A stretch of 64,000 nt of DNA from Candidatus Faecousia excrementipullorum (lineage in GTDB: Bacteria; Bacillota; Clostridia; Oscillospirales; Oscillospiraceae), in NCBI GenBank assembly GCA_018712825.1, contig DVGG01000001.1, positions 1-64,000 of the forward strand. The letters run 5' to 3'. Below the pieces are notes generated by a model. It made no database searches, had not been told where the DNA came from, and saw nothing but the letters and a program-made list of their open reading frames with translations. This document shows positions 1 to 6,240 of the stretch, piece after piece. The position numbers and the translations under genes are program-made. Position 1 is the first letter of the stretch. Each line of letters opens with the position of its first letter.

Positions 1-131
1 CGAGAGATTTTTTGTCAGACAAAAGAATGGAAAACAGGGGAATACTGTATGTATTTCCTGTTTTTCATTCTGCATGGCTGGCGAAAAAGATAAGCTTTCC
101 AGCCGCAGACGATTTGTTCAGAGATTCCCTA
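1..131 (+). repeat. Copy A (5'-truncated by window edge) of 167-bp palindromic MITE-like repeat
   Basis: Matches positions 37-167 of the other copies: GTCAGACAAAAGAATGGAAAACAGGGGAATACTGTATGTATTTCCTGTTTTTCATTCT ... TTGTTCAGAGATTCCCTA. Confidence 0.9.
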
Positions 132-249
132 TATCCCCAAACCCTTCCCGACCCATGTCCATGCTGGGAGTTCGGGAAAAGTTTTCCCCACAGGAAAATT
201 TTGGATTGGGGCTTGACAAATGAAGGGTTGTTGTGTATACTGTTGGCAG

Positions 250-265
250 TTAGCGAAAGCTAACA
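250..265. promoter_or_regulatory. Palindromic operator candidate GTTAGC-GAAA-GCTAAC
   Basis: Perfect 6-bp arms, N4 spacer, upstream of feoA. Confidence 0.7.
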
Positions 266-282
266 AAAATTCAACCATACTG

Positions 283-298
283 TTAGCCTGTGCTAACA
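283..298. promoter_or_regulatory. Palindromic operator candidate GTTAGC-CTGT-GCTAAC
   Basis: Second site, 33 bp downstream of the first. Confidence 0.7.
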
Positions 299-323
299 TC
301 AAACCGGGAAGGGAGGCATACCC

Positions 324-539
324 ATGACCTTAATGGAAGCCCAGGTAGGGCAGGAATACACCATCAGAGCCATCGAAACCCAGGACGAGGAGATGGACGC
401 CTTTCTGTTTTCCCTGGGGTGCTACACCGGGGAGACCATTACGGTGGTTTCCCACCTGAAGGACAGCTGCGTGGTCTGCGTAAAAGACGGACGGTACAAC
501 ATGGATAACCAGCTGGCATCGGCCATAGTGGTGGCGTAA
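324..539 (+). CDS. feoA: FeoA-domain ferrous iron transport protein
   Basis: 71 aa FeoA-like ORF directly upstream of feoB. Confidence 0.8.
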   Translation: MTLMEAQVGQEYTIRAIETQDEEMDAFLFSLGCYTGETITVVSHLKDSCVVCVKDGRYNMDNQLASAIVVA

Positions 540-564
540 CGCCACCCCTGTTTTTTGCTGTATA

Positions 565-580
565 GTTAGCATATGCTAAT
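565..580. promoter_or_regulatory. Palindromic operator candidate GTTAGC-ATAT-GCTAAT
   Basis: Third site, between feoA and feoB. Confidence 0.65.
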
Positions 581-611
581 CGTATAGAAAAGAAAATGAG
601 GAGGAGAAGTT

Positions 612-2657
612 ATGAGAATTGCGTTGGCGGGCAATCCCAACTCGGGAAAAACCACCATGTACAACGCCCTCACCGGCAGAAATGAGAAGGTGGGCAACTG
701 GGCGGGGGTGACGGTGGAGAAAAAGATCCACCCCATCAAAAAGTCCTTTTGTCCCGGAGATCAGGAGCTCCTTGCAGTGGATCTGCCCGGCGCCTACTCC
801 ATGTCTCCCTTCACCAGCGAGGAGAGCATCACCAGCGCCTATGTGAAGCAGGAGAGCCCCGATGTGATTATCAACATCGTGGACGCCACCAATTTAAGCC
901 GCAGCCTGTTTTTCACCACCCAGCTGCTGGAGCTGGGCATCCCTGTGGTGGTGGCCCTGAACAAAAGCGACCTGAAGGACAAAAAGCAGACCCAGATTGA
1001 CGAAAAGCTTCTGTCCCAGAAGCTGGGCTGCCCGGTGGTGGCCACGGTATCCACGGAAGCCAAGGGCCTTGAAGCGCTGGTACGCCAGGCGGCTGCCCGG
1101 CGGGGGGCAGCCCAGACCGCACCCTTCCACCAGGGGGATGTGGATCTGACAGACAAGAAGGCTGTGGAGGCTGCGGACCGGCGGCGGTTTGACTTTGTAA
1201 ACGCCGTGGTAAAGGACGTGGAGACCCGGAAGGTGCTGACCCGGGAGAAGACCACCAGCGACAAAATCGACAAGGTGCTCACCAACCGGTGGCTGGGGAT
1301 TCCCATTTTCGCCCTGGTGATGTTTCTGGTGTTTGAGATTTCCCAGACTTATCTGGGTGCCTGGATTGCAGAGGGCGTGGAGCTGCCCAGCGGCAAAACC
1401 ATTCCCGGCCTGGTGACCCTTCTGGAGGAGTTCCAGGGCTGGGTGGGTGAGCTGATGGCAAATGCCAACCCGCTCCTGAGCGCTCTTCTGGTGGACGGCA
1501 TCATCGGCGGCGTGGCGGCTGTGGTAAGCTTCCTGCCTCTTGTGATGGTGATGTACTTCCTCATCGCCCTTCTGGAGGACTGCGGCTATATGTCCCGGGT
1601 GGCGGTGGTGCTGGACCCCATTTTCAAGAAGGTGGGTCTTTCCGGCAAGTCCGTCATTCCCTTCGTCATCACCATCGGCTGCGCCGTGCCGGGCATCATG
1701 GCCTGCCGTACCATCCGCAACGAGCGGGAGCGCAGAGCCACGGCAATGCTGGCTCCCTTCATGCCCTGCGGTGCCAAAATCCCGGTGATTGCCCTGATTG
1801 CCGGTGCCTTCTTTGATAACGCCGGCTGGGTCAGCGCCACGATGTACCTTACGGGCATTGTGCTGATTTTCCTGGGAGCCCTCCTGGTGAACAAAATCGC
1901 CGGGTACAAAAACCGCAAGTCCTTCTTCCTCATGGAGCTGCCGGAGTACAAGGCACCCTCCTTGTGGTTCGCCTTCAAGGCCATGTGCAGCCGGGGCTGG
2001 GCCTATATCGTAAAGGCCGCCACCATCATCCTGCTGTGCAATGCGGCGGTACATATCATGCAGACCTTCAGCTGGAGCTTTGCTGTGGCAGAGTCCCCCG
2101 ACAGCTCCATCCTGGCCTCCATTGCCGGCCCCTTTGCCTGGGTGCTGGTGCCCATTGTGGGTGTGCTGTCCTGGCAGCTGGCAGCGGCGGCAGTCACCGG
2201 CTTCGTTGCCAAGGAAAATGTGGTGGGAACCCTGGCGGTGTGCTTTGCCGGCCTGGAGAACTTCATCGACACCGATGAGCTGGCTATCATCGAAGGCTCC
2301 GGCACCCAGGTGGCAGGCATCATCGCCATTACCAAAGTGGCTGCCCTGGCTTACCTCATGTTCAACCTCTATACACCCCCCTGCTTTGCCGCCATCGGCG
2401 CCATGAATTCCGAGATGAAGAGCCGCAAGTGGGTCTGGGCAGGCATCGGCCTTCAGATGGGTGTGGGCTATACCGTGGGCTACCTGGTCTACACCGTTGG
2501 CACTCTGATCACCGCCCCGGAAACCCTGAATGTCACCGCAGCCCTCTGCGGTCTGGCAGTGGTAGCTGTCTTTGTGGGAGTGCTGGCGGCCCTGATTCGC
2601 AACACCAACCGGAAGCTGAAAGGGGAGTACGCCCTGACAGCTGCCAGAAAGGCATAA
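612..2657 (+). CDS. feoB: Ferrous iron transport protein B
   Basis: 681 aa; G1 motif GNPNSGKTT, NKSD, Gate domains. Confidence 0.97.
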   Translation: MRIALAGNPNSGKTTMYNALTGRNEKVGNWAGVTVEKKIHPIKKSFCPGDQELLAVDLPGAYSMSPFTSEESITSAYVKQESPDVIINIVDATNLSRSLFFTTQLLELGIPVVVALNKSDLKDKKQTQIDEKLLSQKLGCPVVATVSTEAKGLEALVRQAAARRGAAQTAPFHQGDVDLTDKKAVEAADRRRFDFVNAVVKDVETRKVLTREKTTSDKIDKVLTNRWLGIPIFALVMFLVFEISQTYLGAWIAEGVELPSGKTIPGLVTLLEEFQGWVGELMANANPLLSALLVDGIIGGVAAVVSFLPLVMVMYFLIALLEDCGYMSRVAVVLDPIFKKVGLSGKSVIPFVITIGCAVPGIMACRTIRNERERRATAMLAPFMPCGAKIPVIALIAGAFFDNAGWVSATMYLTGIVLIFLGALLVNKIAGYKNRKSFFLMELPEYKAPSLWFAFKAMCSRGWAYIVKAATIILLCNAAVHIMQTFSWSFAVAESPDSSILASIAGPFAWVLVPIVGVLSWQLAAAAVTGFVAKENVVGTLAVCFAGLENFIDTDELAIIEGSGTQVAGIIAITKVAALAYLMFNLYTPPCFAAIGAMNSEMKSRKWVWAGIGLQMGVGYTVGYLVYTVGTLITAPETLNVTAALCGLAVVAVFVGVLAALIRNTNRKLKGEYALTAARKA

Positions 2658-2659
2658 CT

Positions 2660-2812
2660 ATGGATATTGTGCTTATTCTTATCATCGCAGCCATTCTGGG
2701 AGGCGCCATCTGGTACCTTCGCAGAGCCAAAAAGCAGGGGCAGACCTGCGTAGGCTGTCCCCATGGGAAGCAGTGCCAGGGGCATTGCGACTGCGGTCAT
2801 CACGACCATTGA
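2660..2812 (+). CDS. FeoB-associated Cys-rich membrane protein
   Basis: 50 aa: one TM helix then CVGCPHGKQCQGHCDCGHHDH, immediately after feoB. Confidence 0.85.
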   Translation: MDIVLILIIAAILGGAIWYLRRAKKQGQTCVGCPHGKQCQGHCDCGHHDH

Positions 2813-2818
2813 CAAAAG

Positions 2819-2845
2819 GGGAGACCGGAACCTCCGGTCTCCCCG
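2819..2845 (+). terminator. Stem-loop GGGGAGACCGG/CCGGTCTCCCC after feo genes
   Basis: Strong inverted repeat; T-rich tract slightly downstream. Confidence 0.5.
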
Positions 2846-2876
2846 CCCCCAAAGGGTTTCTTTTTTTTACATAGCG

Positions 2877-2892
2877 GTTAGCATATGCTAAC
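2877..2892. promoter_or_regulatory. Palindromic operator candidate GTTAGC-ATAT-GCTAAC
   Basis: Fourth site, upstream of the DUF2325 gene. Confidence 0.7.
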
Positions 2893-2910: not shown

Positions 2911-3186
2911 ATGAGTGTGGTAATCGTAGGAGGCAATGAATGTATGGCCCGGCGGTATGTGGAAATCTGCCGGGAATACCGTTGCAAGGCCAAGGTTTTC
3001 CCAAAATCCGATGCCGCCCTGAAGAGCATCGGCGACCCGGATCTTCTGGTGCTGTTCACGGGAACGGTTTCCCACAAGATGGTCCGCTCCACCCTGCGGG
3101 AAACCCGGGGTAAGGCAGTGAAGATTGTCCGGTGTCACACCAGCTCCGCCTCTGCCTTGCGAAACATTTTGCAGACCCATACCTGA
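2911..3186 (+). CDS. DUF2325 family protein
   Basis: 91 aa, MSVVIVGGNECMARRYVEICREYRCKAKVFPK... Confidence 0.8.
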   Translation: MSVVIVGGNECMARRYVEICREYRCKAKVFPKSDAALKSIGDPDLLVLFTGTVSHKMVRSTLRETRGKAVKIVRCHTSSASALRNILQTHT

Positions 3187-3200
3187 AAGGAGGAAGCACC

Positions 3201-3761
3201 ATGCCGGATGCCATGATTGTGCGCCACTGCGCCCCCACACTGGCGGGGCTGAAAACAGCCAGCATGTTCACCTGTCCCTTCCAAAGCCGGGAGGAGATGA
3301 ACCGGCAGGTCAGCCGGCTGAACCGTCGGCTTGCCCCCAAGGGAATCCGGGTGCTGCCTCTGCGGTTCCGGGGAGGCAGGGGCCTCATTTACCTGTACCG
3401 CCCCGGCTGGCTGAACCGGGACTTGCAGCAGGCCGAGACCAGAAGCATTCTTGCCCGCTGCGGCTACGGCTGGGACACCTGTGCCGGACAGCTTCGCCGC
3501 CTCCGGCAGCGGCTGGAATCCAGCCGGGAGTTTCCCCATGAAATCGGACTGTTTTTGGGATATCCTCCGGAGGATGTCCGGGGCTTCATGGAGGAAAAGG
3601 CGGAAAATTATAAATGCGTAGGTTGTTGGAAGGTTTACGGCGACCCGGAGAGGGCGCAAAGAACCTTCGACCGATATAAAAAGTGCACCGACGCCTATTG
3701 CCGGTGCCTGGAAAAAGGCAGACCCATAGAGGGTCTTGCGGTCATCAGGAAAGGAAGTTGA
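3201..3761 (+). CDS. DUF3793 family protein
   Basis: ATG after AAGGAGG; HEIGLFLGYPPEDVRGFM and KCVGCWKVYGD motifs. Confidence 0.8.
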   Translation: MPDAMIVRHCAPTLAGLKTASMFTCPFQSREEMNRQVSRLNRRLAPKGIRVLPLRFRGGRGLIYLYRPGWLNRDLQQAETRSILARCGYGWDTCAGQLRRLRQRLESSREFPHEIGLFLGYPPEDVRGFMEEKAENYKCVGCWKVYGDPERAQRTFDRYKKCTDAYCRCLEKGRPIEGLAVIRKGS

Positions 3762-3765
3762 TCAT

Positions 3766-4188
3766 ATGGGAAAAATTGCAGTGGTATACTGGAGCGGCAC
3801 CGGCAACACCGAGGCCATGGCTCAGGCAGTGGCGGAAGGCGCCCGGGAAAAGGGCGCAAAGGTGGCGGTGTTCACCCCCACGGAGTTTGACAGCGCCATG
3901 GTGGAGGACTTTGACGCCATCGCCTTCGGCTGCCCCTCCATGGGGGCGGAGCAGCTGGAGGAGAGCGAGTTTGAGCCCATGTTCTCCGCCTGTGAACCCC
4001 GGCTCCGGGGAAAGCTCCTGGGTCTGTTCGGCTCCTACGGCTGGGGGGATGGGGAGTGGATGCGCTCCTGGGAGGAGACCTGCACCGCCCGGGGAGCGGT
4101 GCTTGCCTGTGAAAGCGTCATCTGCCAGGAAACCCCCGACCAGGAAGCCCTAAAGGCTTGCCAATCCCTGGGCGCCGCCCTGGCATAA
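3766..4188 (+). CDS. Flavodoxin
   Basis: N-terminal VVYWSGTGNTEAMA FMN-binding loop. Confidence 0.92.
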   Translation: MGKIAVVYWSGTGNTEAMAQAVAEGAREKGAKVAVFTPTEFDSAMVEDFDAIAFGCPSMGAEQLEESEFEPMFSACEPRLRGKLLGLFGSYGWGDGEWMRSWEETCTARGAVLACESVICQETPDQEALKACQSLGAALA

Positions 4189-4202: not shown

Positions 4203-4230
4203 GGCCGCAGCTGCTTGCTGCGGCCCTTTT
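4203..4230 (+). terminator. Rho-independent terminator
   Basis: GGCCGCAGC-TGCTT-GCTGCGGCC followed by CTTTTTC. Confidence 0.8.
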
Positions 4231-4777: not shown

Positions 4778-6076
4778 ATGGAGAGTTTGTGGAGCGCCAC
4801 CGCCTCCTTGCCGGTGTTTCCCCGGCTGGAGGCGGATAAGCGGACGGATGTGCTGATTATTGGAGGCGGCATGGCAGGCCTTCTTTGCGCCTACCTTCTG
4901 GAGCAGGCGGGGGTCAGCTATCTTCTGGTGGAGGCCGGGGAGATTGGGGCCGGGGTCACGGGAAACACCACGGGCAAAATCACTGCCCAGCACGGTCTGG
5001 AATACACCCGGCTTCTGAAGGAATTTCCGGTGGAGCTGGTACGGCAGCACTGGCAGGCTCAGACCCAGGCGGTGGAGGATTTGTCCCGGCTGTGCCGGAA
5101 GATTCCCTGTGATTTTCAGGAAAAGGATGCCTTCGTTTTTGCCCGGGACAATTTGGAGGCCCTGGAAAAGGAAGCCCTGGCCATGGCAAAGGTGGGGGCG
5201 GCCCCGGAGCTGGTGTCCGACCTGCCCCTGCCCTTTGTGGCGCAAGGTCTGAAAATCCCCCACCAGGGACAGTTTCATCCCCTGAAATTCCTGGAGGGGA
5301 TTGCCCGGGGGCTGCACATTTATGAGCATACCCGGGTGCTGGAGCTGTCGGGGAACACCGCCGTCACCGACCGGGGAGACATCCGGGGGGAGAAAATCAT
5401 CGTGGCCACCCATTTCCCCTTTCTCAACCGCCGTGGGGCCTATTTCCTGAAAATGTACCAGCAGCGCTCCTATGTGCTGGCGCTGGAGGGGGCAGCCCAG
5501 GTGGAGGGGATGTATATTGAGGCAGAGCCGGGGGGACTGTCCTTCCGGAATTATGGTAACCTGCTGCTTCTGGGAGGCGGGGGACACCGCACCGGCAAGG
5601 CCGGGGGCGGCTGGGAGTATCTGCGGCAAAAAGTCCAGCGGTACTACCCCGCAGCCCGGGAGTGTTACCACTGGGCTGCCCAGGACTGCATGACCCTGGA
5701 CGGCATGGCCTATGTGGGGCCTTATTCCCGGGGCACCCGGAACCTGTATGTGGCCACCGGCTTTCACAAGTGGGGCATGACCGGCTCCATGGCGGCGGCA
5801 ACCCTTCTGCGGGACATGGTGCTGGAAAAGGAAAACCCCTACGCCCGGGTATTTGCCCCGGACAGGCCCATGCTCCGGCCCCAGCTGGGGGTGAACGCCT
5901 GGGAGGCGACACGAAGCCTTCTCACCTTCCGCACCCCCCGGTGCCCCCACTTAGGCTGCTCCCTGGTGTGGAACCCCCAGGAGCACGCCTGGGAGTGCCC
6001 CTGCCACGGCTCCCGGTTCTCCCAATCCGGCAAGGTTCTGGATAACCCAGCCAACAAAAATATGAAAAAGAAATAA
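4778..6076 (+). CDS. FAD-dependent oxidoreductase with C-terminal Rieske [2Fe-2S] domain
   Basis: VLIIGGGMAGLLCAYLLEQAG; CPHLGC...CPCHGSRF. Confidence 0.9.
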   Translation: MESLWSATASLPVFPRLEADKRTDVLIIGGGMAGLLCAYLLEQAGVSYLLVEAGEIGAGVTGNTTGKITAQHGLEYTRLLKEFPVELVRQHWQAQTQAVEDLSRLCRKIPCDFQEKDAFVFARDNLEALEKEALAMAKVGAAPELVSDLPLPFVAQGLKIPHQGQFHPLKFLEGIARGLHIYEHTRVLELSGNTAVTDRGDIRGEKIIVATHFPFLNRRGAYFLKMYQQRSYVLALEGAAQVEGMYIEAEPGGLSFRNYGNLLLLGGGGHRTGKAGGGWEYLRQKVQRYYPAARECYHWAAQDCMTLDGMAYVGPYSRGTRNLYVATGFHKWGMTGSMAAATLLRDMVLEKENPYARVFAPDRPMLRPQLGVNAWEATRSLLTFRTPRCPHLGCSLVWNPQEHAWECPCHGSRFSQSGKVLDNPANKNMKKK

Positions 6077-6240
6077 GGAAACTCTGAATAAATCGTCTGC
6101 GGCTGGAAAGCTTATCTTTTTTGCCATCCACGCAGAATGAAAAACAGGAAATACATACAGTATTCCCCTGTTTTCCATTCTTTTGTCTGACGAAAAATCT
6201 CACGCTGCCAGCTCTTGCCAATTTATTCAGAGCTTCCATA
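6074..6240 (-). repeat. Copy B of 167-bp palindromic MITE-like repeat
   Basis: TAAGGAAACTCTGAATAAAT ... ATTTATTCAGAGCTTCCATA. Confidence 0.95.

Follow-up and report, generated by a model that had tools for sequence, protein, structure and literature searches.

The ferrous-iron transport (feo) locus of Candidatus Faecousia excrementipullorum carries palindromic sites that are very probably bound by an iron-type DtxR repressor controlling iron uptake, here and in many relatives, as judged from shared operators and gene linkage. Several of these sites lie exactly 8 bases behind a terminator and not at a promoter. This arrangement suggests a further role for the repressor in setting the end points of transcripts.

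Operator sites at the feo locus

We refer to the whole 64,000-nt stretch of DNA analysed as the window. Its feo locus contains the following features.

213..218 and 236..241, + strand: sigma-70-type promoter (TTGACA, 17-nt spacer, TATACT); operator 1 begins 7 nt later
249..264: operator 1, GTTAGCGAAAGCTAAC, no mismatch to GTTAGC-N4-GCTAAC; over the expected transcription start
282..297: operator 2, GTTAGCCTGTGCTAAC, no mismatch; 33 bp downstream of operator 1
324..539, + strand: feoA (Pfam FeoA)
530..546, + strand: RNA hairpin GGTGGCG-UAA-CGCCACC of a predicted intrinsic terminator, overlapping the feoA stop codon; -14.8 kcal/mol, z -4.4
551..556, + strand: T-tract TTTTTT; last base 8 nt ahead of operator 3
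565..580: operator 3, GTTAGCATATGCTAAT, one mismatch; terminator-type (T-type), without promoter
612..2657, + strand: feoB (Pfam)
2660..2812, + strand: FeoB-associated Cys-rich membrane protein (PF12669)
2818..2844, + strand: strong 12-bp RNA hairpin; -30.7 kcal/mol over 2818-2868, z -4.4
2861..2868, + strand: T-tract of 8 T, TTTTTTTT; last base 8 nt ahead of operator 4
2877..2892: operator 4, GTTAGCATATGCTAAC, no mismatch; T-type
2911..3186, + strand: DUF2325 gene (Pfam)
3201..3761, + strand: DUF3793 gene (Pfam)
3766..4188, + strand: flavodoxin gene (Pfam)
4203..4225, + strand: plain terminator 3' of the flavodoxin gene, with no operator behind it

The first-pass annotation had reported four GTTAGC-N4-GCTAAC sites. 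All exist, the first two shifted by 1 bp to the coordinates above and the third with one mismatch; the 33-bp spacing of the feoA pair was given correctly, and Pfam gene calls bear out the placement of the sites before feoA, feoB and the DUF2325 gene. RNA folding places a small second hairpin between the 2818..2844 hairpin and the 2861..2868 T-tract. A 135-nt repeat, with inverted copies at window positions 1-135 and 6070-6204 (93% complementary), flanks the region from feo to flavodoxin. It looks like a small mobile element, inside which the contig starts; a similar stretch follows directly after the third site on contig C32 (L018 488-655).

Motif conservation

Counts for the 1.96-Mb genome come from pattern searches. 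With up to three mismatches allowed, the window holds 10 sites against 15 expected, which is not above chance. Matches with two mismatches are also at background level across the genome (14 versus 18 for a reversed control). The first-pass annotation had called for a genome-wide search, on the grounds that randomly scattered copies would speak against an operator. There are six sites with 0–1 mismatches in the entire genome, confined to two loci: the feo locus of the window and C32:391/427. The latter sites lie upstream of a pair of ABC-transporter genes and are accompanied by an extra two-mismatch site at C32:475.

Across the family, 70 of 151 genomes contain the perfect motif, with 151 occurrences in all, compared to 8 for the reversed control. 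We also assembled a comparative set of 80 feoB loci from public genomes, the nearest being that of Candidatus Faecousia excrementigallinarum (FeoB 98% identical). These loci contain 164 sites with at most one mismatch, versus 2 for the control. In relatives, the motif before feoA is usually paired at 33–35 bp, and a further copy stands before feoB. Cultured relatives that share this layout include Angelakisella massiliensis (L117) and Merdimmobilis hominis (L054). The second feoA operator is usually 34 bp from the first and has a T-tract ahead of it, a tract that operator 2 of the window lacks. The palindrome is thus real, but its consensus across the 80 loci is shorter than first described: the core is GTTAG-N6-CTAAC, with positions 6 and 11 favouring C and G yet varying.

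Two classes of operator

The sites fall into two classes by what precedes them. At promoter-type sites, the operator begins 7–8 nt past the -10 box and would therefore cover the transcription start, as operator 1 does. The first feoA sites have a sigma-70 promoter in 92% of 74 loci (3.8% in shuffled sequences). At T-type sites, a T-tract takes this place. Of the 75 sites between feoA and feoB, 38 have a run of at least four T ending 8 nt ahead of the operator, 9 have it at 9 nt and 7 at 10 nt. T frequencies at positions -13, -12 and -11 of these sites are 0.79, 0.85 and 0.92, and A frequencies are 0.15, 0.00 and 0.01. Both internal window sites, operators 3 and 4, have the T-tract end exactly 8 nt upstream, and the second feoA operator shows the same geometry in 38 of 48 loci. 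The two classes are mutually exclusive: 81 sites are promoter-type and 88 are T-type, with one site in both. Outside the feo loci, site orientation taken from a crude ORF caller is too noisy.

We also scanned 401 family genomes without preselection for five T, any 1–25 bases and then the core. Among the matches listed, a gap of 8 accounts for 31 of 119 sites, gaps of 6 and 7 for one each, and counts are at background by 14. In other Clostridia families, gaps of 8, 9, 10 and 11 occur at 16, 13, 9 and 8 sites against a background of 2.2. The composite of T-tract and operator is almost certainly a real, selected feature. Its sharp lower bound at 8 nt fits a steric limit.

The T-tract was considered as a -10 box and rejected, since A makes up 0–1% of bases at -12 and -11 compared with about 50% in promoter-type sites.

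The T-tracts tend to follow RNA hairpins. Median folding energy ahead of the tract is -8.0 kcal/mol at 127 T-type sites and -3.8 kcal/mol at other T-runs (p about 1e-16), with a convincing hairpin directly ahead of the tract missing in about half of the T-type sites. At both window junctions a hairpin is followed by a U-tract, as in an intrinsic terminator (z -4.4 in each case). In the C32 leader (L018 385-445), the first operator, lengthened by flanking GCG/CGC, forms a 10-bp RNA stem followed by TTTTTT and, 11 nt on, the next operator, so that operator and terminator stem are one sequence. An RNA element or riboswitch was rejected as an explanation of the motif: we found no Rfam family at the window locus or at feo, and the palindrome often fails to pair at positions 6 and 11 (A/G, T/T), so the RNA stem is not what is conserved.

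Of the operators that the first-pass annotation described, those before feoB and DUF2325 stand 8 nt past terminator T-tracts and are not promoter operators. For these internal sites we consider repressor-gated termination reasonably probable, with the metal, the binding of the repressor and the raised termination being what we infer from sequence. One alternative is ordinary repression of initiation, in which every operator controls a promoter of its own and the terminators do no more than close off the transcript ahead of them. Sites of the operator 1 kind are exactly this, and intergenic terminators are common. We nevertheless regard it as unlikely for the internal sites, because a promoter is found at 0 of the 75 feoA-feoB sites (2.9% in shuffles), neither flank of the operator shows a -10 peak, and a chance insulator would not hold its T-tract at 8 nt.

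It is also rather improbable that the T-tract is unrelated to termination and belongs to the DNA site itself, for example by bending the DNA asymmetrically and so helping the repressor to bind. The tract is indeed rigidly placed relative to the operator while hairpins vary, and the half-site on its side is the better conserved. But promoter-type operators lack it, the hairpins ahead of it are strongly enriched over those at other T-runs, and it keeps the direction of transcription: on the opposite side of the 75 feoA-feoB sites there is no A-run to match, which also rejects the tract as a symmetric part of the operator.

Geometry alone leaves the sign of the effect unfixed. Polymerase might stop just before the U-tract, so that bound repressor bars it from the tract and prevents proper termination, or antiterminates. 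We hold this to be highly unlikely, as one protein would then repress the operon at operator 1 and activate it further downstream, a contradiction, and a stalled polymerase still would not reach feoB. Repressor-gated termination, with the repressor raising termination, is the reading we carry forward.

Regulator

The first-pass annotation had placed the cognate regulator outside the window, and we found no DtxR or Fur gene within it. Elsewhere, the genome has one good DtxR gene (C62:1636-2001, minus strand, 122 aa), which matches the PF01325 N-terminal winged-helix domain (47.6 bits, E 3.8e-12). It stands alone, with no operator upstream. In relatives, many dtxR genes are themselves preceded by the operator. 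In about 30 of the 80 feoB loci, a DtxR orthologue is found close to feo or as the divergent neighbour of feoA, and the operators are commonly in the intergenic region shared by divergent dtxR and feoA. When loci were fetched by DtxR sequence alone, 13 of 30 had partner genes beside dtxR: feo in 6, DUF3793/DUF2325/flavodoxin in 4 and the ABC pair in 3. The operator is present at all of the feo and all of the DUF3793/DUF2325/flavodoxin loci in this set. The motif also tracks the regulator across genomes, occurring in 37 of 44 with a close DtxR orthologue and in 33 of the 107 without one (Fisher p about 2e-9).

On this evidence the regulator is assigned with high confidence to the DtxR family. 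The first-pass annotation had named Fur or a DtxR-type protein; the second half of that proposal stands. That Fur, or some other regulator, binds the sites is scarcely plausible: the genome does have one Fur-family gene (C2:8747-9079) and, in a few genomes, sites occur where no close DtxR is present, but Fur was rejected for want of linkage, lying near 1 of the 80 feo loci compared to about 30 for DtxR, and the TAGC-N4-GCTA core equals that of the E. coli box for MntR, a DtxR-family protein. Within one genus, the genomes G056 and G123 carry six and two perfect operators without a close DtxR orthologue; a divergent PF01325 protein was all that was found in G056.

We aligned the protein to DtxR, IdeR and MntR structures. 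Its metal ligands Met9, Cys100, Glu103 and His104 align with Met10, Cys102, Glu105 and His106 of DtxR. Among close orthologues, Met is present in 44 of 48 and Cys, Glu and His in 48 of 48. The MntR ligands Asp8 and Glu99 are not kept, those columns holding Met and Cys. The C-terminal SH3-like domain is absent, as the protein ends at 122 aa, right past the dimerization region. From this DtxR-like Met/Cys/Glu/His site on an MntR-sized protein, we infer Fe2+ as the effector.

Paralogues with Asp or Asn in place of Met also adjoin such operators, so further regulators, or Mn2+, may be involved. L117 (4347-4775) and L101 (4346-4774) each have, next to the first DtxR gene, a second paralogue that has Asp for Met and the same operator upstream. 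This Asp-type paralogue may respond to another metal.

Predicted regulon

A search that did not depend on feo placed sites ahead of DUF2325, DUF3793-flavodoxin, the ABC pair, FecCD permeases and a NEAT-domain protein. Of these, FecCD, NEAT and flavodoxin belong to families with known roles in acquiring or sparing iron. A few sites stand before genes whose link to iron is not clear, encoding an S-layer protein and a peptide-type ABC permease. DUF2325, DUF3793 and flavodoxin recur near feo behind the same operator at window 2911-4188 and at L090, L107, L114, L115, L117, L119 and L122. The predicted regulon, wider than first described, comprises feoA/feoB, DUF2325-DUF3793-flavodoxin, the ABC-transporter pair and the genes for FecCD and NEAT proteins, and it often extends to dtxR. 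The earlier suggestion that an iron-type metalloregulator co-controls feo and DUF2325-DUF3793-flavodoxin is well supported by regulator linkage and shared operators.

At L176 (824-3415), a NEAT-domain (iron transport-associated) protein lies behind a T-type operator. Downstream of the ABC pair at L018, positions 5272-5479 match the cobalamin riboswitch RF00174 (94.7 bits), which precedes apparent cobalt-transport (CbiM/N/Q/O-like) genes.

Proposed mechanism

When iron is plentiful, a metal-loaded DtxR dimer, most likely activated by Fe2+, would bind GTTAG-N6-CTAAC. At operator 1 it would cover the transcription start and shut off initiation from the feoA promoter. Bound to operators 3 and 4, and in most relatives also to operator 2, it would sit 8–11 nt beyond a terminator U-tract. 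Polymerase that had passed initiation control would be halted with its active site on or beside the U-tract. The A-U hybrid, usually helped by an upstream RNA hairpin, would favour release, and the complex stalled at this roadblock would fall apart by intrinsic termination. The feoA|feoB and feoB|DUF2325-DUF3793-flavodoxin junctions would thus be terminators that close with iron. When iron is scarce, the repressor would leave, and polymerase would continue into the ferrous-iron import gene and from there into the gene for flavodoxin, which usually stands in for ferredoxin. Because the strong terminators of the window might stop most transcription even without repressor, read-through at low iron must be assumed.

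We see an even chance that this extends to a widespread class in Clostridia. In such a class, a DtxR-family regulator bound 8–11 nt beyond a U-tract would gate the terminators of iron operons, one protein would set both initiation and end points, and in some leaders (C32, L018:385-445) the transcript of the first operator would serve as the terminator stem.

Comparison with known systems

The regulator shares with DtxR and IdeR the PF01325 domain, the primary-site ligands Met, Cys, Glu and His, and iron-uptake target genes. It differs in its length of 122 aa without an SH3-like domain and in its ancillary site, where Glu is lost and His kept. The operators also differ: the IdeR/DtxR box is 19 bp, whereas the operator here is GTTAG-N6-CTAAC. 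In size and two-domain architecture the protein resembles MntR of E. coli and Bacillus, and the region upstream of E. coli mntH (ACATAGC-CTTT-GCTATGT) has the same TAGC-N4-GCTA core and spacing as the operators here. Unlike MntR, however, it has Met and Cys in place of the Asp and Glu ligands, and is predicted to act on Feo and other iron genes instead of mntH.

Like leader attenuators and riboswitches, the proposed arrangement places a conditional intrinsic terminator within an operon. It differs in that a protein bound to the DNA further downstream would supply the signal; no known Rfam family is found at the window locus.

LacI, PurR, CodY and CcpA act as roadblock repressors, and the roadblocked polymerase is removed, in E. 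coli mainly by Mfd, according to the relevant excerpts of PMC10310618 and PMC4132739. The T-type sites are similar in that they lie in a predicted transcribed region without their own promoter (0 of 75 feoA-feoB sites), where a bound repressor is expected to stop elongating polymerase. They differ in being tied at 8–11 nt to a terminator U-tract. Coupling of an operator to a U-tract is not described in the same excerpts of PMC10310618 and PMC4132739; those of PMC4132739 name the sequence upstream of a roadblock as a factor that it did not test. If the gating is true, these loci would offer a natural and readily testable example of intrinsic terminators coupled to a repressor on the DNA, and would address how the sequence ahead of a roadblock affects stalled polymerase.

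Our search of the open-access literature found no paper on the motif, on bacterial DUF3793 function or on operator-coupled intrinsic terminators, which is weak evidence of novelty, and no described iron regulon for these gut Clostridia. The analysis ties two domains of unknown function, DUF2325 and DUF3793, to iron limitation, and assigns a putative regulator, operator and iron regulon for a large set of gut Clostridia, most of which are uncultured.
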